Source: Sulfuritalea sp. (GTDB lineage Bacteria; Pseudomonadota; Gammaproteobacteria; Burkholderiales; Rhodocyclaceae). Taken from it: a DNA stretch of 64,000 nt. Of the stretch, positions 8,863 to 61,111 are shown piece after piece. The DNA is taken from contig JALHPU010000017.1 in assembly GCA_022842325.1 (NCBI GenBank), positions 1-64,000 on the forward strand, written 5' to 3'. The position numbers and the translations under genes were made by a program. The notes beneath the pieces were generated by a model, which saw nothing but the letters and a program-made list of their open reading frames with translations, had not been told where the DNA came from and ran no database searches. Numbering within the stretch: the stretch's first letter is position 1; every line of letters begins with the position of its first letter.

Positions 8863-9657
8863 CTAGCTTTCCGTTCTGGTGCCCGCCGTTTCTGTGCCTT
8901 CCCGCCGGAATTCCGCCAGCAGTTCGGCCTCTTCACTACTCAACACCCTCGTCTCAAGGAGATCCGGGCGCCGTTGCCAGGTCCGTCCCAGCGCCTGCTT
9001 CAGGCGCCAGCGGCGGATCTTTTCGTGGTTGCCGGACAACAAAACCTCCGGCACCGTTGATCCTTCGTACACTTCCGGCCGCGTGTAGTGCGGACAGTCC
9101 AGCAAGCCTGCGGCAAATGAATCCTCCACCGCCGAAGCTTCATCATTCAATGCGCCCGGCAACTGCCTGATGCACGCGTCCATCAAGGCCATCGCCGCCA
9201 GTTCGCCGCCGGACAACACGAAATCGCCCAGCGACAACTCTTCATCCACGCAGCGCTCGATCAGCCGCTCGTCGATTCCTTCGTACCGCCCGCAGAGCAA
9301 AATCGCTCCGGAGCCTGAAGCCAGTTCCACTACCCGCTGCTGCCGGATTGGCGCCCCCTGCGGGGAAAGATAAATCACTTTCGCCGTACCGCCAGCGCCG
9401 ACTCCTGCAGCCGCCTTTGCCGCCGCTTTTGCGGCACTGATCGCCTGCTCCAGCGGCAAGGCCATCATCACCATGCCGGGGCCGCCACCGTAGGGCCGGT
9501 CATCCACCGTTCGATGCACATCCTGCGTCCATTGCCGCGGGTTCCAGCACTCGATCTGCCACAAGCCCCGCTCCAGCGCACGCCGGGTAATTCCCGATGC
9601 CGTGAGTGCCGCGAACATCTCGGGAAACAACGTAATGACGTCGAAGCGCAAGCTCAC
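8863..9657 (-). CDS. trmD: tRNA (guanine-37-N1)-methyltransferase
   Basis: A 264-aa SPOUT methyltransferase that makes m1G37 in tRNAs reading CNN codons and prevents +1 frameshifts. The start [11 protein letters not shown], the AdoMet knot ([15 protein letters not shown]) and [12 protein letters not shown] are all intact. Compared with the E. coli protein as I recall it, the loop before VIYLSPQG is about eight residues longer ([20 protein letters not shown]). This insert contains one copy of the 22-bp dispersed motif, at 9382-9403. The start overlaps the end of rimM by 4 bases, so the two are translationally coupled. Confidence 0.96.
9382..9403 (-). repeat. Dispersed 22-bp motif, copy in trmD
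   Basis: On the minus strand this reads AGTCGGCGCTGGCG, two bases, then ACGGCG. It lies within the TrmD loop insert and codes GVGAGGTA. It is one of seven copies listed separately. Confidence 0.6.
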
Positions 9658-10160
9658 CAGTCACTGTCCCAATCGACGCGGATCAGCCCTCCCGCAACAT
9701 CCACTACCTTGACCACATGGCCGACGAAGGGCAGCAATCTCTCGCGCTCGGCTTCTGCGACCACCAGCACCTGGTTCGCGCCGGTCTCGATCAGAGACTT
9801 GACCCGACCCAGGGGCTGCTCCTGCATGTTCACCACCTCCAGGCCGATCAGATCCGCCCAGTAGTACTCGTCCTGCTCCGGCACCGGCAATGCCTCGCGC
9901 GGTGCGCCGATAAAGCAATTGCCCAAGGCTTCCGACGCATCCCTGTTGTCGATGCCGGCCAGCTTGGCGACGACACCGTCACCGTGCAGCTTGACCGCTT
10001 CCAGTTGATGCGCCTTCCAGCTTGCGGCGGGGGCCTCGGCATCGGTTGCAAGCCACCACTGCGGCATCTTGCGCCAGGCCTCGGGGTCATCACCAAACGG
10101 ATGCACCCGCAACCAGCCCTGAACCCCGAACGGGGCGACGATGCGCCCCAACACGATCAT
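9654..10160 (-). CDS. rimM: Ribosome maturation factor RimM
   Basis: A 168-aa protein that binds S19 and helps assemble the 30S head. The N-terminal barrel starts [23 protein letters not shown], and the PRC-like C-terminal domain contains [13 protein letters not shown] and ends in [12 protein letters not shown]. It lies 5 bases after rpsP and overlaps trmD by 4, so it is part of a tightly coupled ribosomal operon. Confidence 0.95.
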
Positions 10161-10165
10161 GCGAT

Positions 10166-10417
10166 TCAGGCAGCCTTGGTCGCGGCCTGCTTGACCAGAC
10201 GCGCGGCAGTCGGCGACAGCTGCGCGCCATGACCCTGCCAGTAAGCCAGGCGCTCGGTGTTGATCACCAGGCCCTGCTCGCTTGCGGCGGCGACGGGATT
10301 GTAGTAACCGATGCGCTCGATGAAGCGGCCATCGCGGCGGTTGCGCGAATCGGCCACCACCATGTTGAAGAAGGGGCGCTTCTTGGCACCGCTACGGGCA
10401 AGACGAATTACAACCAT
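10166..10417 (-). CDS. rpsP: 30S ribosomal protein S16
   Basis: An 83-aa small-subunit protein needed for 30S assembly. It begins [25 protein letters not shown] and includes [14 protein letters not shown], typical S16. The frame is open 20 codons further upstream, but that part is promoter sequence; ATG 10417 has AAGAGAA upstream and gives the normal length. It is the first gene of the rpsP-rimM-trmD-rplS operon. A -35/-10 pair lies about 30-60 bases upstream, after pyrF. Confidence 0.97.
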
Positions 10418-10448
10418 GATGTTCTCTTGAAAAGCCGGAAAGCCGGCG

Positions 10449-10477
10449 ATTTTATTGCAAAAACCCGGATAAAACAA
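10449..10477 (-). promoter_or_regulatory. Promoter of the rpsP operon
   Basis: Read on the minus strand, TTGTTT and TAAAAT are separated by exactly 17 bases. The -10 is 32 bases before the rpsP start, in the AT-rich gap after pyrF. Confidence 0.55.
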
Positions 10478-10530
10478 GGCATAGCCTCACCCCTTTTGGC
10501 TACCGTGGCGTCGCCGGCCAGGCGGCCTGG

Positions 10531-11265
10531 TCAGCTCCGGGCCTGCCCGAACACCTCACGAATGGTCTGCTGGATGCCGATCGCGGCCTGGCGCGGATTC
10601 TCGGCCTGGCGAATGGGCCGTCCGACCACGATGTAGTCGGCACCGTTCCGGAACGCCTGCGCCACATCGACGGTACGCTTCTGGTCATCCGCGGGTTTGT
10701 TCTCGACCGGTCGAATGCCGGGGGTCACCACCATCAGCTTTTCGCCCAGTTCGCGCCTGATCATGGGCGCCTCGAGACCCGAAGAAACTATCCCGTCCAC
10801 GCCGGCCGCCAGCGCGCGGCGCGCGCGCGAAAGTACAAGCTTGTCCACCTCGCAGGAGAACCCAAGATCGTCGAGATCGCCTCGATCCAGGCTGGTCAGC
10901 ACGGTAACCGCAAGAATCTTGAGATCACCCTTGTCCTTGACCGCCGCTTCCATGATGGCCTGGTTGCCGTGGATGGTGGCAAACGTGGCGCCGCTGCCGG
11001 CCAGGGCGCGAACCGCGGAACGCACCGTTTCCGGGACGTCGAAAAATTTCAGATCGACAAAGACCTTCTTGCCCTGGCCGACGAGCCAGTGCAACAGTTC
11101 AAAATAGCCGCCGGTCATGAACAGCTCCAGCCCGATCTTGTAGAACACCACGGCGTCACCCAGTTCGGTTACGAGGGCGCGCGCTGCGGCCGCATCCGGA
11201 AGATCGAGGGCTACGATCAGGCGATCCCTGGGATCGATGGCCTTGGCAGAAAGCAGATCAGACAT
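10531..11265 (-). CDS. pyrF: Orotidine 5'-phosphate decarboxylase
   Basis: A 244-aa TIM-barrel enzyme that makes UMP from OMP. The catalytic segment VDLKFFDVPETVRSAV contains the Asp-x-Lys-x2-Asp array. The phosphate-binding end includes VVTPGIRP and GADYIVVGRPIRQAENP. Length matches the short bacterial class I form. It lies 114 bases upstream of the rpsP operon on the same strand and is probably a separate unit. The upstream gap of 77 bases to the divergent 504-aa gene would hold both promoters. Confidence 0.97.
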   Translation of the reverse strand: MSDLLSAKAIDPRDRLIVALDLPDAAAARALVTELGDAVVFYKIGLELFMTGGYFELLHWLVGQGKKVFVDLKFFDVPETVRSAVRALAGSGATFATIHGNQAIMEAAVKDKGDLKILAVTVLTSLDRGDLDDLGFSCEVDKLVLSRARRALAAGVDGIVSSGLEAPMIRRELGEKLMVVTPGIRPVENKPADDQKRTVDVAQAFRNGADYIVVGRPIRQAENPRQAAIGIQQTIREVFGQARS

Positions 11266-11342
11266 GGGTGGAATCCTTGCGACAAAACAATGCGCCCGGA
11301 TTCTACTAGAATCGGGTCTGGTTCCCGGCCGTCTCGCCTACC

Positions 11343-12857
11343 ATGCGCCGCAACAAAACATCTCCGCATCCACCCGTCCAGCTTCAGGAAGCGCTCGACT
11401 GGCTCGCCGAACCGCCGCAGGAAGATCCGCTGCTTGATCTGGTGCCCTTGCGCAAGCACATTGCGGCCGTCGGCTCACTGGCACTACCGGCATTGCATCG
11501 GCTCAAGATAGACGAACTGCTGCAGCAACGCGCCGAACGCATCGATGACGCGCTGGTTCCGATGCTGCTCGACGTCAAGCTACCCTTGCCGATGTCACTC
11601 GGCACGATCGCCCAGGGGCTGATCGGCTTGCGGGCGGAGCTTGGGGACACATGGCAGGCGGTTGCCGGCGACGCCGACCCGGAAGAACTCGCCCGCGTTC
11701 ATCGCAGCAAGGCCCAGATTTGCCTGCAGGGAATCAACAATCTGTCACGCCAGTTCCTGGTCATTCTGCTGACCGCGACTCCCACGCCGATGTACTTTTG
11801 GCGCAACGCCCAGGCGCTCTATCACCGCGCCCATGACTCGGTCGACCCGACATCGACGCTCCCCGCGGAAATCGGTGCGATCGACGCCCGCTTCAAGGCC
11901 ATGCTGGCGCTCACTGCAGCCCAACCCGAGGGGCTGACGCCACGCGAAATAGTTTTTCTTGCCGAATATCTCGAGACCCACGGCGTACTCACCAGAATTG
12001 ACGCGATTCCGCCCGAAGCCGCCGGCGACTGGCTCTGGCTGGACGCCAATCTCGACCAGCCGCCGGTATCGCTTGAGCGCATCAAGCCCGACGGTGGACG
12101 CTGTCTGTACGTCCGCCTGGGCGAACTGGCCGCGCTTGCAGCCCAGCATCTGGACAAGCTCAACGACGGAGTGCCTCCCAAGTCACTCGGGCTGCCCATG
12201 CAGGCGGCTGGCGCGGACTACCGCAATGCGCTTGAACGCGCCCGTCAATGCTGGGCGACTCCGCGGCGGCGCAACTTCAACCGCCGCCCGCAATCGCTGC
12301 CAGTGGAAGTCTGCACACAATTGAGCTCCTTGTGGACAGCCCTGCAGAATGACGCCGTGCAGGAACCCGATTCCGCGGTCTGCGAGCTGACCTACAGCGA
12401 TTGGACGGTGCTCAACGAAGGTCCGTCCGGCTATGCGATCGTGCATGTGGTCGGTGCCGTCACCGGCATAGTGCCGGGATGTGCGGTAGGTTTGCGCACC
12501 GGTGCCGGTGCCGCCTGGCAGATTTGCCTCGTACGCTGGGCCCGCAGCCGGAGCAGCACTCATGTCGAACTGGGGCTCGAAGTACTCTCGCCGTCGGCAA
12601 AGCCGGTACGGATCCAGGCGTTGAGCAGCCGGAATCCCGAGCCACCGGTGCCGGCGCTGCTGCTGCCGGCAATGCCGAACATCAACCGCAATGAAGCGAT
12701 ACTCGCCGGGCGCGGCGACTACAACGTCCGTCCCTTTACATTGCTGCAGGAACACGAGGCCCACTTGCAGGTCGCCGAATGCATGCCGCACCGGAGCCTG
12801 ATCGAAACATCAAGCATCGAAGTCTTCGAGTTCATCCGCAACTCGGCCGCACATTAG
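11343..12857 (+). CDS. Conserved-looking protein of unknown function, 504 aa
   Basis: I do not recognise the family with certainty. The protein is soluble, with no signal peptide or transmembrane segment. Residues about 1-170 are helical, Leu-rich and resemble a scaffold. Residues about 345-430 contain NEGPSGYAIVHV, then GCAVGLRTGAG, CLVRWARS and ELGLEVLSP. This pattern (a GYA turn, a G-V-x-L-R strand, a V-R-W strand and an ELG-LEVL end) resembles a PilZ-like beta-barrel. The classical RxxxR c-di-GMP motif is not obvious. The gene is divergent from pyrF and ends four bases into yihY on the other strand. Composition matches its neighbours. Confidence 0.75.
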   Translation: MRRNKTSPHPPVQLQEALDWLAEPPQEDPLLDLVPLRKHIAAVGSLALPALHRLKIDELLQQRAERIDDALVPMLLDVKLPLPMSLGTIAQGLIGLRAELGDTWQAVAGDADPEELARVHRSKAQICLQGINNLSRQFLVILLTATPTPMYFWRNAQALYHRAHDSVDPTSTLPAEIGAIDARFKAMLALTAAQPEGLTPREIVFLAEYLETHGVLTRIDAIPPEAAGDWLWLDANLDQPPVSLERIKPDGGRCLYVRLGELAALAAQHLDKLNDGVPPKSLGLPMQAAGADYRNALERARQCWATPRRRNFNRRPQSLPVEVCTQLSSLWTALQNDAVQEPDSAVCELTYSDWTVLNEGPSGYAIVHVVGAVTGIVPGCAVGLRTGAGAAWQICLVRWARSRSSTHVELGLEVLSPSAKPVRIQALSSRNPEPPVPALLLPAMPNINRNEAILAGRGDYNVRPFTLLQEHEAHLQVAECMPHRSLIETSSIEVFEFIRNSAAH

Positions 12858-13675
12858 GCCCGCGTCGATTGGGGCAACTCGGCAACCAGCAGCGCGCCGA
12901 TCAGAATCACGCTCCACGAGGCATAAAGCCAAACCAGAAATACCGGGACAACCGAGAATGCACCATAGACCACGGCATTTACGGTAAACCCGGTAGCGAT
13001 ATACAGCGTGAAAAGCTTCTGCAGGCCGAGAAAGCCCAGTGCTGCAATCACGCCACCGAAGCCGGCATGCCAAACCCGTACCTGCTTGTTTGGCACCCCC
13101 CAGTAAAGCAGGCCAAACAAGGCGCTCATGAACGCGAACGGCAACAGGCCGCGGATTACGAGGGTGCTCACCCAGGCGGGTTCGTCCAGCAAGCCAAGCG
13201 ATATGCCCGCCACAAAGGATATCCCCGCCAGGCTCGCCCCGAACACCAGCGGCCCCAGGAGCAGTGCAAGGACATGAATAGCCAGGCGTCGCAACAGCGG
13301 ACGACCGGCCTTGATCCGCCAGATCTGATTGAAGGCCCGCTCTATGGTCAGCATCTGGATCAGGGCCGTCGCCCCGAGCACCATGACGCCAAAAAAGGTC
13401 ACGCGTCCGGCGCGCGACGCGAATTGCCCGATGTACTTGGCAATGATGATGCCGGCCTTGTCAGGCAGCAGGTTGGCCAGGAGGAACTTTTCGAGTGCCG
13501 AACCAAGTCCGGCGCCGATCGGCAGGTGTGAAATCAGCGCGAACGCCGTCGCAATCATGGGCACCAGACCAATCAAGGTCGCAAATGAAAGCGCAGCTGC
13601 AATCTGTACGCAATGTTCGCTCCTGAATCGATGCGCGGTGCGGAAGATCAGCCGGAAGGGTGCCAGGAGCCACAT
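12854..13675 (-). CDS. YihY/BrkB family inner-membrane protein
   Basis: A 273-aa protein with six predicted membrane helices, of the YihY (formerly BN) family. The family core is visible as ALSFATLIGLVPMI near the N-terminus and VPNKQVRVWHAGFGG plus YGAFSVVPVFLVWLYASW in the second half. Long family members carry a C-terminal cytoplasmic domain, but this one ends shortly after the last helix. Function is not settled. It is divergent from wrbA, only 28 bases apart, an arrangement (yihY-wrbA-DUF2069) that recurs in betaproteobacteria. Confidence 0.9.
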   Translation of the reverse strand: MWLLAPFRLIFRTAHRFRSEHCVQIAAALSFATLIGLVPMIATAFALISHLPIGAGLGSALEKFLLANLLPDKAGIIIAKYIGQFASRAGRVTFFGVMVLGATALIQMLTIERAFNQIWRIKAGRPLLRRLAIHVLALLLGPLVFGASLAGISFVAGISLGLLDEPAWVSTLVIRGLLPFAFMSALFGLLYWGVPNKQVRVWHAGFGGVIAALGFLGLQKLFTLYIATGFTVNAVVYGAFSVVPVFLVWLYASWSVILIGALLVAELPQSTRA

Positions 13676-13703
13676 ATAATCGGATTCTACTGGAGGCAGA
13701 TAA

Positions 13704-16193
<2,490 letters not shown>

Positions 16194-16291
16194 GGCTATC
16201 TCCTGGGGAAAATCAAACTTAGGCGGTAGCTTCCGGCGGCAGTAATGGGTTGTGAAGCGGCCGAAACCAACACCAAAATCAAAGCGTTATA

Positions 16292-16309: not shown

Positions 16310-16345
16310 GCACTATCAAAAACCGGATTGTGGGGGGGGGTGTAG

Positions 16346-16447: not shown

Positions 16448-16454
16448 GGCAATG

Positions 16455-16483: not shown

Positions 16484-16527
16484 CAAGTTTTGTTACCGCT
16501 TATTGCCTGCCTTGAGAGAAGCGTGAG

Positions 16528-30423: not shown

Positions 30424-30461
30424 AAAACAAAACGGCCACCCGAAGGTGGCCGTTTTGTTTT
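30424..30461. terminator. Bidirectional terminator between cytochrome c' and cytochrome b
   Basis: A 17-bp perfect stem (AAAACAAAACGGCCACC with its complement, CGAA tetraloop) with A-tract on one side and TTTT on the other. It stops both converging genes, and the stop codon of the cytochrome b gene begins in its last bases. Confidence 0.88.
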
Positions 30462-31143
30462 ACCAGTTCGGTGCGGCGGTAGGCGCCGCAACAGGCGGGG
30501 GTAACGCAATCCAGGCGCCGCTGGCGCCGTAGGCGGCGCCCAGGGCAATCGCCAGCGCGACGCAGAAGGCCAGCGCTCCGCCACCCTTCGCCGTCTCGCC
30601 AGCGCCGTCCTTCCAGCCGGTGACCATGGGCATGATCAGGGTTTGCTTCCTGAAGCGGACGTAATAAGCGATGGCGCACAGGTGCGCAAGCACCAGCAGT
30701 ATCGTCAGCGGCTCGATCAGGCGATGGATGCCCGCCATCCGATCCGAGAATTCCTTGCCCACCAGCGCGTAGAGCGGCCCTTCGAAGGCGATGTCATCGT
30801 TGGCGAACAATCCGGTCGCCACCAGCAACGCCAGCGTGGCCAGCATCGCCAGCACCGACAGGGCGCCGAGCGGATTGTGTCCTTCGCCCTGCCACTGCCC
30901 GCGCAGATAGTCCCGGATGGCATGTGGCCCGCGCACGAACTGGGTGAAGCGCGCGTAAGTCGAACCGACAAAACCCCAAACCAGGCGAAATGCCAGCAGG
31001 CCGACCACGGTCACGCCGATGCGGCCATGCCAGACCATGGCATTGCCGCCGATCTTTACCGTGACGAAGGATCCGACCACGCAGAGCGCCAAAACCCAGT
31101 GAAACACCCGGGTCGGCAGATCCCAGACGCGGATGCGCTGCAT
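30460..31143 (-). CDS. Cytochrome b561-like membrane protein
   Basis: A 227-aa di-haem b-type cytochrome (cytochrome b561/Ni-Fe hydrogenase b type). It begins MQRIRVWDLPTRVFHWVLALCVVGS and has four or five membrane segments with His in FHW, MVWHGRIG and the LVLAHLCAIAYY helix. It likely passes electrons between quinones and a periplasmic c-type cytochrome. ATG 31143 overlaps the secF stop (ATGA), giving coupling to secF; an upstream in-frame extension lies inside secF and is rejected. Confidence 0.85.
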   Translation of the reverse strand: MQRIRVWDLPTRVFHWVLALCVVGSFVTVKIGGNAMVWHGRIGVTVVGLLAFRLVWGFVGSTYARFTQFVRGPHAIRDYLRGQWQGEGHNPLGALSVLAMLATLALLVATGLFANDDIAFEGPLYALVGKEFSDRMAGIHRLIEPLTILLVLAHLCAIAYYVRFRKQTLIMPMVTGWKDGAGETAKGGGALAFCVALAIALGAAYGASGAWIALPPPVAAPTAAPNW

Positions 31144-32117
31144 CAGACCACGGCTTCCTGCTTCTCTACCTTGGGCTTGACGAATTGTTCGCGCGAGACG
31201 CCGAGCCACATCACCAGGGGGCTGGCCACCAGCACCGACGAATAGATGCCGAACAGGATGCCGATGGTCAGTGCCAGGGCGAAGTAGTGCAACGCCGCGC
31301 CACCGAACACCAGCATCGAAGTGACCATCATCTGCGTCGAGCCATGGGTGATTATGGTGCGCGAGATGGTGCTGGTAATGGCGTGGTCCAGCACCTGCGG
31401 CGTGGTCATGCCGCGCTTCTTCTTGAAGGTTTCGCGGACCCGGTCGAACACCACCACGGATTCATTCACCGAGTAGCCCAATACCGCCAGCACCGCCGCC
31501 AGCACCGGCAAGGAGAATTCCCACTGAAAGAAGGAAAAGAAGCCGAGGATGATCACCACGTCGTGCATGTTGGCGATGATGGCAGACAGCGCGAAGCGCC
31601 ATTCGAAGCGGAAGGCCAGATACAGCATGATGCCCACTACCACCAGCAGCAGGGCCAGGGCGCCATCTTCGGCGAGTTCCTTGCCCACCTGCGGCCCGAC
31701 GAATTCGACCCGTTTGAGTTCAGGTGTCATCACGGGCGCCGCACCGCCAGCGCCGTCCCCGGGGATACCGCTACGCATAACTTTCATCAGCGAAGCCATG
31801 ACCTGCTCACCGACCTTCGAGCTTTCAGTGCCCTTCGTCAGCGGAACGCGAATCAGCACCTCGCGCGAGGAACCGAAGTTCTGCACCTGCGGATCGACAA
31901 AGCCGTCAGCTTCCAGTTGCTTGCGAATCTGCGTTAGGTCAGGCGCCTGGGCATAGCTGACTTCCATCAGCGTGCCCCCGGTGAACTCGACGGAAAAGTG
32001 CAGACCCCGGGTGGCCAGAAAGAACACCGCCAGCAAAAAGGTGATCAACGAAATGATGTTGAACACCAGGGCATGGCGCATGAAGGGAATGTCTTTGCGT
32101 ATGCGGAAAAATTCCAT
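31143..32117 (-). CDS. secF: Protein translocase subunit SecF
   Basis: A 324-aa inner-membrane protein that works with SecD and YajC to pull proteins through SecYEG using the proton gradient. Six helices, with the SecF periplasmic domain between 1 and 2. Recognisable: FSVEFTGGTLMEVSY, and GYSVNESVVVFDRVRETFKKKRG, plus SRTIITHGSTQMMV. It follows secD by 1 base and overlaps the cytochrome b gene. Confidence 0.96.
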   Translation of the reverse strand: MEFFRIRKDIPFMRHALVFNIISLITFLLAVFFLATRGLHFSVEFTGGTLMEVSYAQAPDLTQIRKQLEADGFVDPQVQNFGSSREVLIRVPLTKGTESSKVGEQVMASLMKVMRSGIPGDGAGGAAPVMTPELKRVEFVGPQVGKELAEDGALALLLVVVGIMLYLAFRFEWRFALSAIIANMHDVVIILGFFSFFQWEFSLPVLAAVLAVLGYSVNESVVVFDRVRETFKKKRGMTTPQVLDHAITSTISRTIITHGSTQMMVTSMLVFGGAALHYFALALTIGILFGIYSSVLVASPLVMWLGVSREQFVKPKVEKQEAVV

Positions 32118-34409: not shown

Positions 34410-36544
<2,135 letters not shown>

Positions 36545-44880: not shown

Positions 44881-46425
44881 ATGAATAAACGTACCGTCAT
44901 CGTTCTTCTGGCAGGTGTCCTGATACTGGGCGTCGGCGGCTATGCCGCATGGCGGACATGGGACCGCGGCGGCGATGCGCCAAAATACAAACTGGCCAAG
45001 GCCGAAGCCGGTCCGCTCACGGCCGCGGTCTCCGCCACCGGTACCCTGAACCCAGTGGTCTCGGTACAAGTCGGTTCTCAGGTCTCGGGACAGATCAAGG
45101 AGATCCTGGTCGACTTCAATTCGCCGGTGAAATCCGGCCAGTTGATCGCCCGACTGGACCCGGAAACCTACGAGCACCGCGTACGCCAGGCCCAGGCGGA
45201 CGTTGACGCGGCGCGCGCCGGCCAGGGCGTGCAGCAGGCGGAAGTGTCCCGCGCCCGCGCCAATCTGTCCAACGCCCAGCGCGACTACGAGCGCAAGAAA
45301 ACCCTGGTGGAGAAGAATTTCATTTCCCCGGCCGAGCGCGACACCGCGCAGAACACCCTCGATGCGGCACGCGCGGCCCTCGCCTCGGCCGAGGCGCAGG
45401 TGAAGAACGGCGAGGCCGTGGTCCGCCAGCGTGAAGCCCAACTCGCCGCCGCCCGCGTCGATCTGGAACGCACCTCGATCAAGGCGCCGGTGGACGGCAT
45501 CGTCGTCAAGCGCAGCATCGAACCGGGGCAGACGGTGGCCGCCAGCCTGCAGGCGCCGGAACTGTTCGTCATCGCCAAGAACCTGACCGACATGCAGGTC
45601 GAAACCTCGATCGACGAAGCCGATGTGGGTCGCGTCCGCCTCGGGCAGAAAGCCAGCTTCACGGTGGACGCCTTCGCCGGTCGCCACTTCGAAGGCGAGG
45701 TGCGGCAGGTGCGCAAGGCCGCCACCGTGGTGTCGAACGTCGTGACCTACACCGTGGTAATTTCGGCGGCCAATCCCGATCTCACGCTGCTGCCGGGAAT
45801 GACGGCCAATGTGCGCATCATCACTGCGCAAAAGGACAAGGTGCTCAAGGTGCCGAACGCGGCGCTGCGTTTCCGCCCTGCCGGCGCTGCCGACGAGAAG
45901 AAGACCGGGGCCGCCGTAGCGCCGGCGCCGACTCCTGCCGCAACCACCTCGGCTGGTGGCGGTGCGGGAAGCGGCGGTCTCGCGCAGCAACGCGAGCGTC
46001 TGGTTGCCGAACTCAAGCTCGATGCCGACCAGAAGGCCAAGCTTGAGGCCATCTACGACGGCATGCGCGACAGGTTCAGGGCCGCACGCGATCTGCCCGA
46101 GGCGGAAAAGAGCAAAGCACAGGAACGCAATCGCAGCGAGATTCGCGAGAAAACCGCAGCCATGCTCAACCCGGAACAGAGGATGCGCTACGACGAACTG
46201 GCCAGCGAGGCGCAGACTGCGCGCGCCGGCGGCGGTGGCGGCACGGGGCGAATCTGGATCCTCGGCGAAGATGGCAGGCCCAAGGCTGTCGAGGTGCGCC
46301 TGGGCCTCACCGACGGCAGCATGACCGAGATCCTGTCCGGCGACATCAAGGAGGGCCAGGAAGTCATCGCCGGACAGCAGGCCGCAACGAAGGCTTCCGG
46401 CATGCCCGGCCCGCGGCTGTTCTAG
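44881..46425 (+). CDS. Periplasmic adaptor (MacA/HlyD type) with helical insert
   Basis: A 514-aa membrane-fusion protein of a MacAB-type tripartite exporter. It has an N-terminal anchor ([20 protein letters not shown]), a split lipoyl domain, a long alpha-hairpin (about 85-175), and beta-barrel and membrane-proximal domains. Between them, residues about 355-445 hold an insert: a Pro/Ala/Gly linker, then [26 protein letters not shown] and [15 protein letters not shown], which resemble LTxxQ helices of Spy/CpxP. Usual MacA is about 370-400 aa. It precedes a macB-like ATPase and permease by 11 bases. Confidence 0.88.
45912..45933 (-). repeat. Dispersed 22-bp motif, copy in the adaptor gene
   Basis: On the minus strand AGTCGGCGCCGGCG, two bases, then ACGGCG. 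In the gene's own direction it codes AVAPAPT, at the start of the linker of the helical insert. Confidence 0.55.
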
Positions 46426-53091: not shown

Positions 53092-54651
53092 TTGAACGCG
53101 ACCACATCCGACATCACCCATTCCGACGCCACATTCGCCCCGAGCCCGGACGCCGCGTTGATCGCCGCGCCCGACGCCGTAGCGCCAGCGCCGACTTTTG
53201 ACCAACTCGGCCTGCTGCCCGAACTGCTGCGTGCCATCAAGGACGCCGGCTACACGACACCGACGCCGATCCAGATCCAGGCCATCCCGATCATCATGGC
53301 CGGCAAGGATGTCATGGGCGGCGCCCAGACCGGCACCGGCAAGACCGCCGGCTTCACCCTGCCGCTGTTGCAACGACTGGCGCGCCACGCCAGCAGTTCG
53401 CCTTCGCCGGCACGCCATCCGGTGCGCGCGCTGATCCTGGCGCCGACGCGCGAGCTGGCGATGCAGGTGCATCAGAGCGTGGTCACCTACAGCAAGCACC
53501 TGCCGCTGCGTTCCGTCTGCATCTATGGCGGCGTCGATATCCGGCCGCAGATCGCCGAGCTGCGCGAGGGCCGCGAAATCATCATCGCCACACCAGGGCG
53601 GCTGCTCGATCACGTGCAGCAGAAGAGCGTCAGCTTCAACGCCGTCGAGGTGCTGGTGCTCGACGAAGCCGACCGCATGCTCGACATGGGCTTCATCCCC
53701 GACATCAAGCGCATCCTCGCCATGCTGCCGAAGGAACGCCAGAGCCTGCTGTTCTCGGCCACCTTCTCCAACGAGATCAAGAACCTCGCCGACAGCATGC
53801 TCAAGGCGCCGCAGCTGATTGAGGTCGCACGGCGCAACATGGTGACCGAGACCGTCACCCACCGCGTCTACCCGGTGGCCTCGGACCTCAAGCGCAGCCT
53901 GCTGGTGCATCTGCTGACGCACGACGAGGAAAATGCCAAACAGGTGCTGGTGTTCGTCGGCACCAAGTTCGGCGCCAGCCGCCTTGCCGTATATCTCGAA
54001 CGTCAGGGCATCGCCGCCGATGCCATCCACGGCGACAAGAGCCAGCAGCAGCGCACCGAAGCGCTGGAAGGCTTCAAATCGGGCAAGATCCGCGTGCTGG
54101 TCGCCACCGACGTCGCCGCGCGCGGACTCGACATCGACGACCTGCCGCATGTCATCAACTACGAGTTGCCGCACACGGCCGAGGACTACATCCATCGCAT
54201 CGGTCGAACGGGGCGCGCCGGCAAGCACGGCAATGCCACCTCGCTGTTTGCGCCGGAGGAAGCCCAGCGCCTGACCGACATCGAACGGCTGATCAAGCGC
54301 AAGATCGAGCGCGTCGAGATCAGCGGCTTCGCCGAACTGGCACAGGTGCGTGAAAGCGCGCCACCGAGCAATCGCGGACACAAGCGCGAACACCTCGAAC
54401 GGGCCCGCGAGAAGGCACGCGAGCATGATCGCGCGTTGACACTGGACGGCAGCCGCCCGGCCGGTCGCGAGTTGCCCAGCCCCGTCGCCCACGTACCGCG
54501 CCTCGATCCGCGCCTGCCGCGGCTCGATTTCGACCCGAACAAACCCTACGTCAGCAAAACCGTCGCGGTCGACGTCGGTGCCGAAAAGCCCGCACCGACG
54601 CGCCCGCAGCGACCCGTTGCGGCACTACTCGGCGGCTTGGGCAAGAAATAG
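53092..54651 (+). CDS. rhlE: DEAD-box RNA helicase, RhlE type
   Basis: A 519-aa ATP-dependent RNA helicase. Q motif TPTPIQIQAIPI, motif I AQTGTGKT, motif II VLDEADRMLDMGF, motif III LLFSATFS, motif VI HRIGRTGRAG. The C-terminal 140 residues are Arg/Lys-rich and variable, typical of RhlE. The start is TTG 53092 with AGGAG upstream. A 22-bp motif copy lies in the N-terminal linker. The preceding 200 bases hold a -10 (TACAAT) and a long leader, so cold-shock type control is possible. Confidence 0.92.
   Translation: MNATTSDITHSDATFAPSPDAALIAAPDAVAPAPTFDQLGLLPELLRAIKDAGYTTPTPIQIQAIPIIMAGKDVMGGAQTGTGKTAGFTLPLLQRLARHASSSPSPARHPVRALILAPTRELAMQVHQSVVTYSKHLPLRSVCIYGGVDIRPQIAELREGREIIIATPGRLLDHVQQKSVSFNAVEVLVLDEADRMLDMGFIPDIKRILAMLPKERQSLLFSATFSNEIKNLADSMLKAPQLIEVARRNMVTETVTHRVYPVASDLKRSLLVHLLTHDEENAKQVLVFVGTKFGASRLAVYLERQGIAADAIHGDKSQQQRTEALEGFKSGKIRVLVATDVAARGLDIDDLPHVINYELPHTAEDYIHRIGRTGRAGKHGNATSLFAPEEAQRLTDIERLIKRKIERVEISGFAELAQVRESAPPSNRGHKREHLERAREKAREHDRALTLDGSRPAGRELPSPVAHVPRLDPRLPRLDFDPNKPYVSKTVAVDVGAEKPAPTRPQRPVAALLGGLGKK
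53175..53196 (-). repeat. Dispersed 22-bp motif, copy in the helicase gene
   Basis: On the minus strand AGTCGGCGCTGGCG, two bases, then ACGGCG. In the gene it codes AVAPAPTF before the helicase core. Confidence 0.55.
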
Positions 54652-54668
54652 CCACAGGCTCATCGGCC

Positions 54669-55808
54669 ATGCACGGCCAGGCAGCGTGGCAAATCGAGGT
54701 GCTCTCGTCCGCCGACGATCCCGCGACTTTGGTGATCGTTCTCGGCGGTCGCTGGCGCATCGACCAGCATCTGCCCACGGCCGATACCCTGAATGACAGA
54801 CTGGCGGCGCCGGTGCGCCGGATCCGTTTCGACGCGGGCGAACTCGCCGAGTGGGATTCCGGCCTGCTGAGCTTCGTTTCCGGAATCAGCAAGTACGGCA
54901 CGGAGCGTGGCATCGCCGTCGATGGCAGCGGACTGCCATCGGGTGCACAGCGCCTGCTGGCGATGGCGCTGGCGGTGCCGGAGCAAAAGCTTGCGGGGCG
55001 GGAAAACGGCCCACAGGGAAGCTTCGCCAAAGTCGGTACCGCGACCCTGGAGTTCATCCACGGTGCGCCGCAGATGCTGGGCTTTCTCGGCGAAGTCACG
55101 TTGTCGCTGTTACGGCTGCTTTCCGGCCGTGCCCGTTTTCGTGCCCGCGACCTTTGGCTGGAAATCGAGGAAGTCGGGCCGCGCGCCCTGCCGATCGTCT
55201 CGGTGATCAGCTTCCTGGTCGGGCTGATCCTCGCCTATCTCGGCGCCGACCAGCTGAAACTGGTCGGGGCGCAGATATTCATCGCCGACCTGGTGGCCAT
55301 CGGCATGGTGCGCGAGGTGGGCGCGCTGATGACCGGCATCATCATCGCCGGCCGTACCGGCGCCGCCTTTGCCGCGCAGCTCGGCACCATGCAGGTCAAT
55401 GAGGAAATCGACGCCTTCAAGACGCTCGGCATCTCGGCCATCGATTTCCTGGTGCTGCCGCGTATCCTCGCGCTGATGCTGATGGTGCCGCTGCTGACGC
55501 TCTACTCCGGCTTCATCGGCATGCTGGCGGGCTTGCTGGTCTCGGTCACGATCTTCGACATCGGCGTTTTTGAGTACTACACCGAAACCCTGCGCGCGCT
55601 GGAATTCAAGCAGTTCGCGGTCGGCCTGTCGAAGGGCACGGTGTATGGCGCGATGATCGCCTTCGCCGGCTGCCTGCGCGGCATGCAGTGCGGACGCAGC
55701 GCCGAAGCGGTCGGCCATGCCGCCACCTCGGCCGTGGTCACCGCGATCCTGCTGATCACGATCGCGGCCTCGATCATGACCATCGTGTACTACCAGTTGG
55801 GAATTTGA
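54669..55808 (+). CDS. MlaE-type permease with N-terminal STAS domain
   Basis: A 379-aa lipid-transport permease. Residues 1-110 form a STAS-like domain (RIRFDAGELAEWDSGLLSFVSGISKYG); 135-379 are the MlaE core (GPRALPIVSVISFLVGLILAYLGADQLK, and GREVGALMTGIIIAGRTGAAFAAQLGTM-like text). In E. coli MlaB (STAS) is a separate protein; here it is fused. Forms a complex with the next two genes. Confidence 0.9.
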   Translation: MHGQAAWQIEVLSSADDPATLVIVLGGRWRIDQHLPTADTLNDRLAAPVRRIRFDAGELAEWDSGLLSFVSGISKYGTERGIAVDGSGLPSGAQRLLAMALAVPEQKLAGRENGPQGSFAKVGTATLEFIHGAPQMLGFLGEVTLSLLRLLSGRARFRARDLWLEIEEVGPRALPIVSVISFLVGLILAYLGADQLKLVGAQIFIADLVAIGMVREVGALMTGIIIAGRTGAAFAAQLGTMQVNEEIDAFKTLGISAIDFLVLPRILALMLMVPLLTLYSGFIGMLAGLLVSVTIFDIGVFEYYTETLRALEFKQFAVGLSKGTVYGAMIAFAGCLRGMQCGRSAEAVGHAATSAVVTAILLITIAASIMTIVYYQLGI

Positions 55809-55812
55809 AGCC

Positions 55813-56565
55813 ATGAACGGCGCAGCCCACATCGAGGTACGCGACCTGAGCATGGCTTATGGCGATTTCATCGTGCAGAGCAGTCTCGATTTCACGGTGA
55901 ACAAGGGCGACATCTTCGTCGTCATGGGCGGCAACGGTTGCGGCAAGACCACGCTGATGCGCGCCCTGGTCGGCCTGCAGCGGCCCGCGGCCGGCGCGGT
56001 GCTGTACAGCGGCGAAGACTTCTGGAATGCCGAAGAGGAGGCGCAGCAAAGGCTCAAGCGCCGGCTCGGCATCCTGTTCCAGGGCGGTGCGCTGTGGAGC
56101 TCACTGACACTCGCGGAAAATGTCGCGCTGCCGATCGCCGAATACACAGGCCTGCCCCCGGCCCGCGTGGACGAAATCGTCGCCTTCAAGCTGGCCCTGG
56201 TCGGACTGGCCGGCTGCGAGGATTTGTACCCTGCCGAGTTGAGCGGCGGCATGAAGAAACGTGCAGGTCTGGCGCGCGCGATGGCGCTCGATCCGGACAT
56301 CCTGGTCATCGACGAGCCTTCGTCCGGGCTCGATCCGCTGACGGCGCGGCGCCTCGACGAGCTGATCATGGAACTGCGCGACAGCCTCGGCACCACCATC
56401 GTCGTCATCACGCACGAACTGGCCAGCATTCTCAGCATCGGCAACAATTCCATCTATCTCGATACCGAAAGCCGCACCATGATCGCCACCGGCCACCCGC
56501 AGGACGCCTTGAAGAACGGCCATCCCAAGGTCCGTCATTTCCTCAGTCGCGGAGTTGTTGAATGA
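55813..56565 (+). CDS. Lipid-transport ATPase, MlaF type
   Basis: A 250-aa ABC ATPase with Walker A GGNGCGKTT, Q-loop LFQGGALWSS, signature LSGGMKKRAGLARAM and Walker B LVIDEPSSGLDP. LSGGMKKR is the MlaF form. 4 bases after the permease gene; overlaps the MCE gene by four. Confidence 0.93.
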   Translation: MNGAAHIEVRDLSMAYGDFIVQSSLDFTVNKGDIFVVMGGNGCGKTTLMRALVGLQRPAAGAVLYSGEDFWNAEEEAQQRLKRRLGILFQGGALWSSLTLAENVALPIAEYTGLPPARVDEIVAFKLALVGLAGCEDLYPAELSGGMKKRAGLARAMALDPDILVIDEPSSGLDPLTARRLDELIMELRDSLGTTIVVITHELASILSIGNNSIYLDTESRTMIATGHPQDALKNGHPKVRHFLSRGVVE

Positions 56566-57578
56566 GCCGCAAAGCCAACCCCACGCTGATCGGCGCCTTC
56601 GTGCTCGGCGCGGTGGCACTGGCGATCATCGCCACGCTGCTGCTGGCCGGCGGCAGCTGGTTCGGCGAACGCAAGCAGCATGTGCTGTATTTCGAGGGTG
56701 CGGCCCAGGGCCTGCAGGTCGGCGCGCCGGTGGTCTTTCTCGGCGTCAAGGTCGGCACTGTGAGGCAGATCCAGCTCGGCCTCGACCAGCAGACCCGCCG
56801 CTTCCTGGTCCCGGTAACCATCGAAGTGGAACCCCAGGTCGTGCATACGCACGGCGGGCAGAACATCGATCTGCGCGACCGTGACACCGTCCGTCAATTG
56901 GTCGAGCGCGGCCTGCGCGCACGGCTGCGGATGCAAAGCCTGCTGACTGGCCAGCTTTACGTCGATCTCGATTTCCATCCGGACAAGCCGGCGACCTTCG
57001 CCGCACTCGATCCCGAGCTCAGCGAAATCCCGACCATCCGTACTGCCGTGCAGGAGCTGAGCACCAAGCTCGAAGCCTTCCCGATGGACAAGTTCCTCGC
57101 CGACGTCGCAGCGATCAGCAGCGCGGTGAACAAGCTGATGTCGGCGCAGGCCACGCAAGACCTGCCACGGCGCCTCGACGCCACCCTGCGCCACCTTGAA
57201 TCGCTCGCCGCACGCTTCGATGCGCAGGGCGGCCCGATCCTCAAGGACGTGCGCGGCAACCTGGCCGAGATGCACAAGGCACTGCTGGCGGCGCAGGCCG
57301 CGCTGGCCAGGCTCGACACCGCCGCCGAGCGCGTCGCCGATCTGGCGCGCGCCGACTCGCGCATGGTGGCCGGCATGACCCAGGCCAGCGAGGATCTGGC
57401 CAAGGCCGCCGCTTCGGTACGCAAGCTGACCGAACAGGAATCGCCGACGGTAGACAACGTCAATGCCACGCTCAAGGAAATCGCCCGCGCCGCCGATGCC
57501 CTGCGCCTGCTGGCGGAAACCCTGGAACAGCAACCCGATGCCATCTGGCGCGGCAAGCGGCAGAAGACCGCCCCCTGA
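56562..57578 (+). CDS. MlaD/MCE-domain protein
   Basis: A 338-aa substrate-binding protein with an N-terminal helix (ALAIIATLLLAGGSWFG), one MCE domain (about 40-110, YFEGAAQGLQVGAPVVFLGVKVGTV) and a long helical C-terminal region that could form a tube or needle, longer than MlaD of E. coli. Forms a lipid shuttle with the two upstream genes. No mlaC or mlaA gene is adjacent. Confidence 0.9.
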   Translation: MSRKANPTLIGAFVLGAVALAIIATLLLAGGSWFGERKQHVLYFEGAAQGLQVGAPVVFLGVKVGTVRQIQLGLDQQTRRFLVPVTIEVEPQVVHTHGGQNIDLRDRDTVRQLVERGLRARLRMQSLLTGQLYVDLDFHPDKPATFAALDPELSEIPTIRTAVQELSTKLEAFPMDKFLADVAAISSAVNKLMSAQATQDLPRRLDATLRHLESLAARFDAQGGPILKDVRGNLAEMHKALLAAQAALARLDTAAERVADLARADSRMVAGMTQASEDLAKAAASVRKLTEQESPTVDNVNATLKEIARAADALRLLAETLEQQPDAIWRGKRQKTAP

Positions 57579-57602
57579 CCCATCAAATCAGAAGGAGAAA
57601 TT

Positions 57603-57689
57603 ATGGACCCCCACGCTCACATTCGTTCGCTGCCCCCCAAGGGGGCGCATGCCTCCCTTGGGGCGGCCCTGCGGAAGGCATGGCCATGA
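57603..57689 (+). CDS. Repeat-derived leader ORF, 28 codons
   Basis: AGAAGGAGAAATT, a strong ribosome site, precedes ATG 57603. The frame runs 28 codons through a GC-rich repeat (starting MDPHAHIRSLPPKG) and stops at TGA 57687-57689, which overlaps ATG 57686 of the FAH gene as ATGA. The peptide itself is unlikely to have a role; the ORF may deliver ribosomes to the FAH gene. Confidence 0.5.
   Translation: MDPHAHIRSLPPKGAHASLGAALRKAWP
57607..57672. repeat. GC-rich intergenic palindromic repeat
   Basis: Two hairpins: GCCCCCCAAGGGGGC, then TCCCTTGGGGCGGC, with a CACATTCGTTCG lead-in. The CCCCAAGGGG/CCTTGGGGCGGC pattern is of the type scattered between betaproteobacterial genes. It has inserted between a ribosome site and the FAH coding region. 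Confidence 0.65.
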
Positions 57690-58525
57690 AGCTCGTCCGC
57701 TTCGGCCCCAAGGACCGCGAAAAACCCGGCCTGATCGCCGCCGACGGCACGCTGCGCGATCTGTCCGCCCATGTCGCCGACATCGGCTGGAACGAGCTCT
57801 CCACCGCCGGCCAGCAGCGCCTGCGCGCACTGAATCCGGCCACGCTGCCCGCGGTGCGCGGCAAGCCGCGCTTCGGCGTGCCCTTCACCGGGATTTCGAA
57901 AATCGTCGGCATCGGACTCAACTACCGTGCCCACGCCCTCGAAGCCGGGATGCCGATTCCCGCCGAGCCGGTGATGTTCATGAAAGCCACGACCTGCATC
58001 AGCGGCCCCGACGATCCGATCCTGATGCCGATCGGCAGCAGCAAGCTCGACTGGGAAGTCGAACTAGGGCTAGTCATCGGCAAGGAAAGCCGTCAGGTCA
58101 GCGAAGCCGCGGCGCTCGACCACGTCGCCGGCTACTGCGTGTTCCACGATGTCTCGGAGCGCGCCTTCCAGCTCGAACGCGGCGGCCAGTGGGACAAGGG
58201 CAAGGGCTGCGACAGCTTCGGCCCGATCGGCCCCTGGCTGGTGACGAAGGATGAAATCGCCGACCCGCAAGCCTTGCGCCTGTGGCTCGACGTCAATGGC
58301 GAACGCATGCAGGATTCGAGCACGTCCGACATGATCTTTTCCTGCGCCCAGATCGTCAGCTATGTTTCGCGTTTCATGACCCTGCTGCCCGGCGACGTGA
58401 TCTGCACCGGCACGCCGCAGGGCGTCGGCATGGGCCGCGGCCGCTTCCTGCAGCTCGGCGACAAAGTGAAGCTCGGCGTCGAGGGCCTCGGCGAGCAGGA
58501 ACAGACCGTCATCGCCACACGGTAG
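57686..58525 (+). CDS. Fumarylacetoacetate hydrolase family protein
   Basis: A 279-aa FAH-fold enzyme, with GIGLNYRAHALEAGMPIPAEPVMFMKATTC, metal ligands in LDWEVELGLVIGKESR and the QDSSTSDMIFSCAQIVSYVS segment, ending CTGTPQGVGMG. Family members hydrolyse C-C bonds or hydrate 2-oxo acids. 57680 is an alternative start two codons earlier. The gene next to it is an FGGY kinase, but a common pathway is not evident. Confidence 0.9.
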   Translation: MKLVRFGPKDREKPGLIAADGTLRDLSAHVADIGWNELSTAGQQRLRALNPATLPAVRGKPRFGVPFTGISKIVGIGLNYRAHALEAGMPIPAEPVMFMKATTCISGPDDPILMPIGSSKLDWEVELGLVIGKESRQVSEAAALDHVAGYCVFHDVSERAFQLERGGQWDKGKGCDSFGPIGPWLVTKDEIADPQALRLWLDVNGERMQDSSTSDMIFSCAQIVSYVSRFMTLLPGDVICTGTPQGVGMGRGRFLQLGDKVKLGVEGLGEQEQTVIATR

Positions 58526-58531
58526 CGCAAG

Positions 58532-58553
58532 AGTCGGCGCTGGCGACACGGTG
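58532..58553 (+). repeat. Dispersed 22-bp motif, intergenic copy
   Basis: AGTCGGCGCTGGCG, two bases, then ACGGTG, six bases after the FAH stop, in non-coding DNA. Confidence 0.55.
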
Positions 58554-58587
58554 ACCGCCGCGGGTAGCGGTAGTATCTGGGGCTGCC

Positions 58588-60153
58588 ATGAGCAACGACT
58601 ACCTCCTCGCCATCGACTGCGGCACGCAAAGCGTGCGCGCCTTGATCTTCGACCTGCGCGGTCATCTGGTCGACAAGGCGCAGGTCGATATCACCAGCTA
58701 CCAGTCGCCGCAGCCGGGCTGGGTCGAAATCGACCCAGAAGAATTCTGGCGCGCCCTGTGCCAGGCCTGCCAGCGCCTCTGGGCCAATACCCGGGTGCCG
58801 AAGAGCTCGATCCGCGGCGTGGTCATCACCACCCAGCGCGCCACCGTCATCAATCTCGACCGCCACGGCCAGCCGCTACGGCCGGCCATCGTCTGGCTCG
58901 ACCAACGGCGCGCCGATACACGGCCGACGTTTTCGTGGTGGTGGGAACTGGCCTTCCGCACCATCGGCATGCGCGAAACGATCCGCTTCTTCGCCCGCGA
59001 AGCCGAGGCCAACTGGATTGCCCAGCATCAGCCCGCGCTCTGGGCGCGCACCGACAAGTACCTGCTGCTCTCCGGCTACCTCAACTACCGCTGCACCGGC
59101 CGTTACGCCGATTCCGTAGCGAGCCAGGTCGGCTACATTCCATTCGACTACCGGCGCGGGCGCTGGGCCAGCGCCTGGAACTGGAAATGGCAGTGCCTGC
59201 CGGTCAGGCGCGAAATGCTGCCCGAGTTGGTCCCGGCCGGTGCCCGGCTCGGCGTAATCAGCACCGACGCAGCGCGCGACACCGGCATTCCCGCAGGCCT
59301 GCCGCTGATCGCCGGCGCCGCCGACAAGGCCTGCGAAGTCATCGGCGCCGGCTGCCTGACGCCCGAGATCGCCTGCCTCTCCTACGGCACCGCCGCCACC
59401 ATCAACACCAGCACGCCGCGCTACATGGAGGCCACGCCCTTCATCCCGCCCTACCAGGCCGCGGTGCCCGGCCACTACAACACCGAGATCCAGATCACGC
59501 GCGGCTTCTGGATGGTCAACTGGTTCAAGGAACAGTTCGGCCTGCACGAGCAGATCGAAGCGCAGAGCCGCGGCGTGGCGCCCGAGAACCTGTTCGACGA
59601 ACTGGTCAATGCGGTGCCGCCCGGCGCCATGGGCCTGATGCTGCAGCCCTTCTGGAATCCCGGCATCAAGGTGCCAGGCCCGGAAGCCAAGGGCGCCGTG
59701 ATCGGCTTCGGCGACGTGCATACCCGCGCCCACCTCTACCGCGCCATCCTCGAAGGCCTCGCCTATGCCTTGCGCGAAGGCAAGGAGCGCATCGAACGGC
59801 GCGGCGGCACCCGCATCGAACGCGTGCGCGTCTCCGGCGGCGGCTCGCAAAGCGACGCCGCGATGCAGATCACCGCCAACATCTTCAACCTGCCCGCCGA
59901 GCGCCCTCACCTTTACGAGACCAGCGGCCTCGGCGCCGCCATCATCACTGCCGTCGGCCTCGGCCTGCACCCCGACTTCGCCACCGCCGTGCGCGAAATG
60001 ACCCGCGTCGGCCAGGTGTTCCAGCCCGAGCCGCAGCACGTGCGCATCTACGAACAGCTCTACCGCAAGGTGTATTGCCGCATGTACCAGCGGCTGCAGC
60101 CGCTGTACCGGGAGATACGCGAGATCACCGGCTATCCGGCCAGCGGGGCATGA
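58588..60153 (+). CDS. FGGY-family carbohydrate kinase
   Basis: A 521-aa kinase with the phosphate-1 loop LAIDCGTQSVRALIFDLRG, activation region GVVITTQRATVINLDRHGQPLRPAIVWLDQRR, and the C-terminal RVSGGGSQSDAAMQITANIF. Resembles xylulokinase/glycerol-kinase relatives, but the sugar is not identifiable. GGGGCTGCC precedes the ATG. Confidence 0.9.
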   Translation: MSNDYLLAIDCGTQSVRALIFDLRGHLVDKAQVDITSYQSPQPGWVEIDPEEFWRALCQACQRLWANTRVPKSSIRGVVITTQRATVINLDRHGQPLRPAIVWLDQRRADTRPTFSWWWELAFRTIGMRETIRFFAREAEANWIAQHQPALWARTDKYLLLSGYLNYRCTGRYADSVASQVGYIPFDYRRGRWASAWNWKWQCLPVRREMLPELVPAGARLGVISTDAARDTGIPAGLPLIAGAADKACEVIGAGCLTPEIACLSYGTAATINTSTPRYMEATPFIPPYQAAVPGHYNTEIQITRGFWMVNWFKEQFGLHEQIEAQSRGVAPENLFDELVNAVPPGAMGLMLQPFWNPGIKVPGPEAKGAVIGFGDVHTRAHLYRAILEGLAYALREGKERIERRGGTRIERVRVSGGGSQSDAAMQITANIFNLPAERPHLYETSGLGAAIITAVGLGLHPDFATAVREMTRVGQVFQPEPQHVRIYEQLYRKVYCRMYQRLQPLYREIREITGYPASGA

Positions 60154-60305
60154 AAGCCTCCGCTGGTGGCGGAGCAACTACTTCCGCTTTGGGGACAGGA
60201 ATACAAGGGGTCGCGTCGACCCCAAGCAGCCGGTCGCGAACCCGGACCCCCTTTTGCTGGCCGATTAGCCTCTCAAGGCGTCCGGGGCGTATCAAAGGCT
60301 CCCCG
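60154..60305. other. Gene-free gap with two hairpins
   Basis: CTCCGC/GCGGAG (60158-60174) and GGGGTC/GACCCC (60207-60223) pair but are not followed by T-tracts. No gene was seen. The first may end kinase transcription. Confidence 0.4.
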
Positions 60306-60779
60306 CTAGAGCGGGCGACCGAGATGCCTTTCAACCTGCCGACGTTCCCACTGTGGGCCGAGGAACCAAGCTGGTCTAAAAACCCGAGAAGCGTGCATCA
60401 AGATACCCAATCCCCATCCGCCCATCACCCAATAGACCCACATTCTTTGTGGAGAAACGATCAGGTTGATGGCCAGCAACGCGATAACGACAACTATGTA
60501 TTGAAAAAGGTGCATGTAGAAGCGTCGAAGGCTGCGTACATACTTAAACGCTTCTGCTTCCTGCTTTTCGCTTAGGGCATTTTCTGTAGATGTCATGTCT
60601 TGCTCCGGTTTAAGGGTTGAGAAGTCCACTTCGAACACCGCAGCAAGCGACTTGAGTGTTTCGATACTGGCCGGTTGTCCAGTTTCAATGCGCTGAATGG
60701 TTCTGACACTCAAACCGCTGGCATCGGCCAACTGTTGTTGTGACCACCCGTGTTTAAGGCGTAATTTCTGAATCAACAT
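60306..60779 (-). CDS. XRE-family HTH protein with 2TM tail
   Basis: A 157-aa protein with an XRE helix-turn-helix (LIQKLRLKHGWSQQQLADASGLSVRTIQRIETGQPASIETLKSLAAVF, 2-50), a linker, and a C-terminal 2TM domain (two helices, about 93-130, within MHLFQYIVVVIALLAINLIVS and VYWVMGGWGLGILMHASRVF). It is a membrane-tethered DNA-binding protein. No partner gene is adjacent; its targets are unknown. Confidence 0.85.
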   Translation of the reverse strand: MLIQKLRLKHGWSQQQLADASGLSVRTIQRIETGQPASIETLKSLAAVFEVDFSTLKPEQDMTSTENALSEKQEAEAFKYVRSLRRFYMHLFQYIVVVIALLAINLIVSPQRMWVYWVMGGWGLGILMHASRVFRPAWFLGPQWERRQVERHLGRPL

Positions 60780-61111
60780 GTCAAGCTCCAGTTGCTACGG
60801 AATCCCCAAGATGGCATAAAAGGTTGCAATGTGCGACGACAGCAATACGCCAATACCCCGACACCGACGCGACATTGTCGCAAAGAACCAGCCGCGCAGC
60901 GGGGTTGGGGAACGACAGCTATTGGTCGACGCCGTCCGCGAAGCGGGCGGCTGGCTTAGCGACCGTCCCAGCGGACCTTTGGCAGCGAGGGCAGTCTGAC
61001 ACTGCAGGCCGGGGCGGCGGGGTGTACGAGTCAAGCACATCGGAAGCGAAGTCACACCACAAAAAGTCGGCGCTGGCGACACGCCAATTTACCGTCTCTC
61101 CGCAGCGGACC
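60780..61111. other. Gene-free stretch before the DUF294 gene
   Basis: 332 bases with no supported coding frame. It contains patches like GAACGACAGCTATTGGTCG and GCGAAGCGGGCGGC that look like decayed repeat material, and the 22-bp motif at 61065. Confidence 0.45.
61065..61086 (+). repeat. Dispersed 22-bp motif, intergenic copy
   Basis: AGTCGGCGCTGGCG, two bases, then ACGCCA. The 18 bases from 61065 are identical to the 58532 copy up to GACACG. Confidence 0.55.

Follow-up and report, generated by a model that had tools for sequence, protein, structure and literature searches.

The window analysed here, a stretch of 64,000 nucleotides from Sulfuritalea sp. (positions 1 to 64,000 of contig JALHPU010000017.1), carries scattered copies of a 22-bp motif, AGTCGGCGYYGGCGNNACGSCG, that recurs throughout the genome at a density of about one copy per 7.6 kb. 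We regard this motif as probably a DNA uptake sequence, comparable to the DNA uptake sequences (DUS) and uptake signal sequences (USS) that tag self DNA for natural transformation. According to a 2025 paper, tags of this kind are known from just two bacterial families, the Neisseriaceae and the Pasteurellaceae, and the motif looks like a third case. Somewhat more cautiously, we favor the view that it represents a third, independently evolved uptake-sequence system, which would reside in a betaproteobacterial family outside the Neisseriaceae and consist of a block of two helical turns (22–26 bp), working only as a whole and varying in genus-level dialects (AGTCGGCG, AGTCGACG and AGTCAGCS). A block of this length would imply a receptor that reads a stretch about double that recognized by ComP. 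In published accounts, DUS and USS number from hundreds to thousands per genome, vary in dialect among members of a family and are over-represented in non-coding DNA; they also lack an orientation bias, are evenly spaced, and arise by point mutation and not by insertion. Apart from even spacing, these marks were found within our samples, which is why we read the motif as a probable uptake sequence kept by uptake-biased recombination.

The genome-wide count on both strands that an earlier note on this DNA had proposed yielded 642 copies with at most one mismatch in the window genome (4,892,856 bases in 121 contigs), 280 on the forward and 362 on the reverse strand, against none for the reversed pattern used as a control. 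The same note had cautioned that the motif might be no commoner than codon-matched sequence. This concern can be set aside: home-made gene models for a 464-kb sample delimit 400,545 coding bases, in which 24 perfect copies were observed where 100 synonymous-codon shuffles gave a mean of 0.1, and 21 one-mismatch copies against 1.2. Coding copies with two mismatches (8 vs. 4.8) fall inside the range of the shuffles, whose maximum was 10, and those with three (9 vs. 12.6) show no excess; the copies with zero, one, two, three and four mismatches number 35, 32, 15, 12 and 30, respectively. In a logo drawn from the 67 copies with at most one mismatch in the 464 kb, information stops sharply after 22–26 bp. 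Positions 1–9, 11–14 and 17–22 are well fixed and position 10 is a pyrimidine; in the flanks, positions −2 to 0 are rich in purines and 23–24 are slightly biased, and the motif is not palindromic. Outside the full motif, AGTCGGCGY occurs 34 times in genome G000 where an order-4 Markov model expects 35.6, and GGCGNNACGSCG 23 times against 28.1, the values for the two halves in genome G001 being 37 against 31.0 and 23 against 25.4 (the sequence tested, with its motif copies, also served to train the model, whose expectation covers all occurrences). Enrichment is clear for the whole block alone and for neither half by itself.

By the home-made gene models, 45 of these 67 sampled copies lie in genes and 22 are intergenic, as compared with a non-coding fraction of about 14% in the 464 kb. 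Genic copies appear 19 times in the sense frame that gives VGAGxTA, 10 times antisense as RRxASAD, 8 times antisense as AVxPAPT, and 8 times across the other three frames. Within queA, four-fold degenerate sites have a mean entropy of 0.47 bits at the six positions inside the motif vs. 1.21 at the 108 outside it, only 7 of which are as low as the motif mean (28 sequences, G000 omitted).

All 31 genomes of the genus that were searched carry the motif, in 34 to 642 copies each (34 in G026, 102 in G002, 153 in G021 and 276–642 in the other 28), with zero or one match per genome for the reversed pattern. Among 150 genomes sampled across the family, 62 had any match and 16 had at least 30 copies, the latter coming from genera g1 (4 genomes), g8, g19 (3/3), g38, g46 (3/3), g64 (3/3) and one of the two genomes of g23; the remainder held 0–7 copies, bar G070 (11), G142 (12) and G085 (14), and all these family counts are underestimates for genomes that use a dialect. 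In a sample of 250 genomes from the order, the 242 outside the family hold 0–5 copies of the degenerate pattern. The best QueA identity outside the genus is 67% among the 80 loci kept, vs. 74–86% within it, and none of these 80 loci therefore belongs to the genus; the 12 genomes tested from this outside set contain 0–4 copies. QueA is closer to that of an unplaced betaproteobacterium and of Zoogloea (66–67%) than to those of the two named Neisseriaceae (59% and 55%), which points to a host family other than the Neisseriaceae.

Dialects became apparent when k-mer counts and logos were combined. They read AAAAGTCGACGCTGGGG..ACGGYR in G074 (g45; 29 core matches in 143 kb), AAAGTCAGCSGTGGCG..ACGCCG in G142 (g66; 27 core matches in 178 kb) and AAAAGTCGGYGCTGGCG in G037 (g8; 60 kb). 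All ten stretches from G142 and three of the ten from G074 were on contigs preselected for a motif match; the enriched dialect words exceed what the preselecting pattern demanded. In G153 (g19), four of five motif-like rows in 30 kb end in ACGGCA, numbers too small for a firm dialect. G067 (g38) and G074 possess pilins that are 80% identical yet use different dialects, AGTCGGCG and AGTCGACG, and would make a good pair for locating a receptor change.

A few low-copy genomes show clustered matches. All five copies of G111 sit within 41 kb and on a single strand (C1, 1461265–1502264), and this DNA may have been acquired from a motif-rich bacterium. At least two of the few copies share one contig in G210 (C3), G187 (C29), G257 (C34) and G085 (C104), where contamination of the assemblies is possible. 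At least 120 stretches with an exact copy were met among IMG/VR viral contigs, mostly one copy each among the 80 listed (L225–L304). A plasmid search with the consensus 30-mer returned 80 records, in which the matches are weak and scattered.

We propose that the pattern comes about as follows. DNA carrying the motif of about 22–26 bp would be bound by a receptor on the cell surface, which is probably one of the minor pilins of type IV; kin DNA so tagged would be drawn in, pass through ComEC in single-stranded form and then recombine. If tagged fragments are preferred in uptake, copies created by point mutation would spread and homologous recombination would restore them, a form of molecular drive. 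Copies would then settle in intergenic gaps and in tolerant places of proteins, and changes in the receptor would produce the genus-level dialects. A functional DNA signal of the uptake type had been among the suggestions of the earlier note, and it finds support in the distribution of the motif, its dialects, its origin by point mutation (see below), the codon shuffles, the placement of the copies and the enrichment of the whole unit.

Several observations weigh against an uptake function, beginning with the fact that the case for it rests on pattern. The presence of transformation machinery (ComEC, DprA, type IV pilins) does fit uptake, but all 34 genomes tested have ComEC, motif-rich and motif-less alike, and a DprA domain also occurs in all 34, in 33 above cut-off, the weak match (E 3.8e-4) belonging to G004, a genome with 636 copies. 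A pilin of the ComP_DUS family is present in 32 of 34 genomes and missing from the dialect genome G074, in which two N_methyl matches were seen and whose assembly is in 330 contigs; a second pilin family, of 245 amino acids, is present in 31 of 34 and missing from the dialect genome G142. Because motif-less relatives have them too, neither pilin family discriminates, nor do ComEC and DprA, and the receptor search as a whole (ComP_DUS pilins and 245-residue pilins in 34 genomes, N_methyl proteins in 14) produced no candidate that separates motif-rich from motif-less genomes. The motif is also about twice as long as the DUS or the USS core, and less dense. In trmD the contrast at synonymous sites is weak (mean entropy 0.61 vs. 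0.95 in 25 sequences), 20 of the 77 outside four-fold sites being as low as the motif mean; the most variable motif site (1.5 bits) is the degenerate NN. Spacing is near random in the window, with a coefficient of variation (CV) of 0.98, and slightly more even than random at most (0.81 and 0.67 in two other stretches). The circular genome G001 shows a mild leading-strand bias: when GC skew is used to tell the strands apart, 47 of 73 sampled copies follow the leading one. Finally, terminators built from inverted repeats are common among known uptake sequences; when folds of the 22 intergenic copies were inspected by eye, with no control, the single such case was a copy (C1 246789) whose start recurs in inverted form and pairs with it.

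The explanation that competes best with an uptake sequence, though in our judgment an unlikely one, is that the motif is bound by a DNA-binding protein of the cytoplasm, such as a nucleoid-associated, domain-organizing or segregation factor that needs hundreds of sites along the chromosome. A long and compact footprint of some two helical turns, enriched only as a whole unit, would suit such a protein, as would the leading-strand bias and the spacing, which two of the three stretches show to be somewhat evener than random. However, copies within genes occupy each of the six reading frames and are gained and lost by point mutation among species of one genus, and a change of dialect at hundreds of sites would be hard to achieve unless something like biased uptake drove it. 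The strict polarity of FtsK-orienting polar sequences (KOPS) is not seen either. In G001 the copies divide into 323 forward and 315 reverse overall; plus-to-minus ratios in five blocks (460 of 3,803 kb) are 12:5, 10:6, 6:10, 4:12 and 1:7, and both strands are represented in the blocks at 0–100 kb and 600–700 kb. With just 47 of 73 copies along the leading strand, a segregation signal of the KOPS type, another suggestion of the earlier note, is disfavored; the mildness of the bias rules out polarity of that sort in this genome.

We give very little credence to a small mobile element, resembling repetitive extragenic palindromic (REP) sequences or Rickettsia palindromic elements (RPE), that would sit in genes and gaps and be tolerated in frame. 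The high copy number, the recurrence of the in-frame peptides VGAGxTA and AVxPAPT and the existence in this genome of another, palindromic repeat family could speak for it, whereas the sharp end of conservation after 22–26 bp and the lack of a palindrome do not. Orthologous sites also speak against it. Queries were the 168 motif copies that nine genomes hold in 15 joined stretches; the same stretches, together with the queA and trmD loci, were the targets, and pairs were dropped when flank identity was below 70%, when fewer than 50 bases aligned on either side, or when they were near-identical (at least 99.9%). This left 376 pairs at 35 sites, of which 353 are ungapped (257 with zero or one mismatch, 96 with two or more) and 23 contain some gap; a clean absence of the motif was encountered in none. 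The pairs are not independent, since queA, tgt and trmD dominate and some genomes enter twice, as locus and as stretch. A looser version of the comparison gave 170 ungapped pairs out of 227 and 57 with gaps of many sizes, again with no clean absence.

The individual protein alignments agree. The earlier note had asked whether the QueA residues encoded by the motif are an insert; in the alignment there is no gap at the motif in 27 of 28 sequences of the genus (28 aligned of 29 loci), nor in the motif columns of 23 of the 24 named outside loci, several of which are gapped upstream, and the motif overlies a pre-existing G-x-G/A-E-T segment. The exception in the genus is G021 (L119 / L178), in which 27 bases are inserted in frame precisely where the motif would lie; this genome holds 153 copies, below most of the genus. 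As for TrmD (25 of 27 loci aligned), motif-less L140, L141, L147, L152 and L155 carry substitutions at the motif place. The TrmD loop had been thought longer than in E. coli, and in the window species it is indeed longer than in PDB chain 1p9p, but the motif is not the cause: the extra length stems from an AKAAA repeat upstream, which accounts for the length variation, and in the shortest TrmD proteins of the genus that have the motif (L157–L159) the loop equals that of 1p9p. At the sites tested, mostly in queA, tgt and trmD, the motif arises by point mutation and a mobile element is refuted, the gap analysis of orthologues ruling out an inserted unit.

A Chi-like recombination hotspot, read by RecBCD or AddAB, is equally hard to sustain. 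The leading-strand bias of G001 would fit it, and the motif contains GCTGGCG, which is near the Chi sequence of Escherichia coli. Known Chi sites are 5–8 bases long. Outside the motif, GCYGGCG shows no enrichment in G000 (1512 occurrences vs. 1555 expected in all), neither half of the motif does, and with no short word enriched by itself a short signal of the Chi type is ruled out. Least credible of all is the view that composition, codon usage or preference for a certain peptide gave rise to the motif incidentally: it is GC-rich and certain reading frames are favored, yet the idea is refuted by the dinucleotide shuffles of the window (mean 0.02), the reversed pattern (0) and the synonymous-codon shuffles (0.1 vs. 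24), besides the 22 of 67 copies that are intergenic.

The window itself holds the seven copies listed in the earlier note, each at the coordinates and on the strand given there, with five in genes and two in gaps as claimed; the eighth, a near-copy, is added here. The expectation of the note that chance would give close to none in 64 kb is borne out as well, since 100 dinucleotide shuffles contain on average 0.02 matches with up to two mismatches and none of them reaches 8. The five genic copies match AGTCGGCGYYGGCGNNACGSCG exactly. One lies in trmD (CDS 8863–9657, minus strand) at 9382–9403 on the minus strand, in the sense orientation encoding VGAGGTA; across the genus, 22 of 27 trmD loci are within two mismatches of the motif at this place. 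Two others occur in genes named by recognition from their translations, without a family search: tgt (CDS 34410–35522, minus strand), with a copy at 35439–35460 on the plus strand that encodes GVAPTPT antisense, and queA (CDS 35519–36544, minus strand), with a copy at 35723–35744 on the minus strand that encodes KVGAGETA in the sense direction. Several members of the genus have substitutions, and no gap, at these 22 positions of tgt, and the queA place is within two mismatches of the motif in 27 of 29 loci. The remaining genic copies, both on the minus strand and encoding AVAPAPT antisense, are found at 45912–45933 in an HlyD/MacA-like membrane-fusion gene (CDS 44881–46425, plus strand) and at 53175–53196, close to where the gene for a DEAD-box helicase of RhlE-like type (CDS 53092–54651, plus strand) has its 5′ end. 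The two intergenic copies, on the plus strand, have one mismatch each, within the final two bases: that at 58532–58553 separates an FAA-hydrolase gene (57680–58525, plus strand) from an FGGY kinase gene (58588–60153, plus strand), and that at 61065–61086 lies directly past the 3′ end of a DUF294/CBS gene (61112–62680, minus strand). The near-copy, with two mismatches, is at 30589–30610 on the minus strand and encodes DGAGETA within a cytochrome b561-family gene (30460–31209, minus strand). An Rfam search of the window gave no match. A separate palindromic repeat family, GGCCGACTGAAGTCGGCCCTACA with GGCGGACTTCAGTCCGCC variants, is present at 100–180 in the window and in clusters in L009, L014, L016 and L027; its members often form tandem inverted clusters and have a REP-like look, and AGTCGGC is common to this family and to the 22-bp motif, perhaps by chance.

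The literature searched, a body that leaves most subscription papers and all bioRxiv preprints outside, yielded among the matches listed no report of such a motif in Rhodocyclaceae or Accumulibacter and none that prints GTCGGCGCTGGCG. If the motif is an uptake sequence, having three cases would allow the evolution of self-specific DNA uptake to be studied comparatively and would pose a new receptor problem, namely how two helical turns are read. The bacteria concerned would be naturally transformable, now or until recently, which could open genetics in the group, and the motif would serve as a genomic barcode for gene exchange among them.

Short repeats present both in genes and between them are familiar from Rickettsia palindromic elements and REP sequences. 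The motif differs from these in being non-palindromic and in not having been inserted at the sites tested. Like the DUS of Neisseriaceae, recognized by the receptor ComP, it comes in many copies, is lineage-restricted and differs by a few bases between relatives. Its sequence is another one, however, it is 22–26 bp long rather than about 10–13 bp, and copies are fewer, about one per 7.6 kb; the neisserial 10–12-mer is not matched by our logos, which display a longer and different sequence, though the letters CTG occur. With the USS of Pasteurellaceae, for which ComN/PpdA is a candidate receptor, the motif shares an origin by point mutation and a majority of copies in genes: 65% of Haemophilus influenzae USS are published as lying in reading frames, as compared with 45 of 67 copies here. 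The Hin-USS AAGTGCGGT loosely resembles AAGTCGGYG of the motif, a likeness of cores that may be due to chance. No AT-rich segments are visible downstream of the motif in the logo of 67 copies; where the USS combines a nine-base core containing GCGG with distal AT-rich segments, the motif described here is one compact, GC-rich block.

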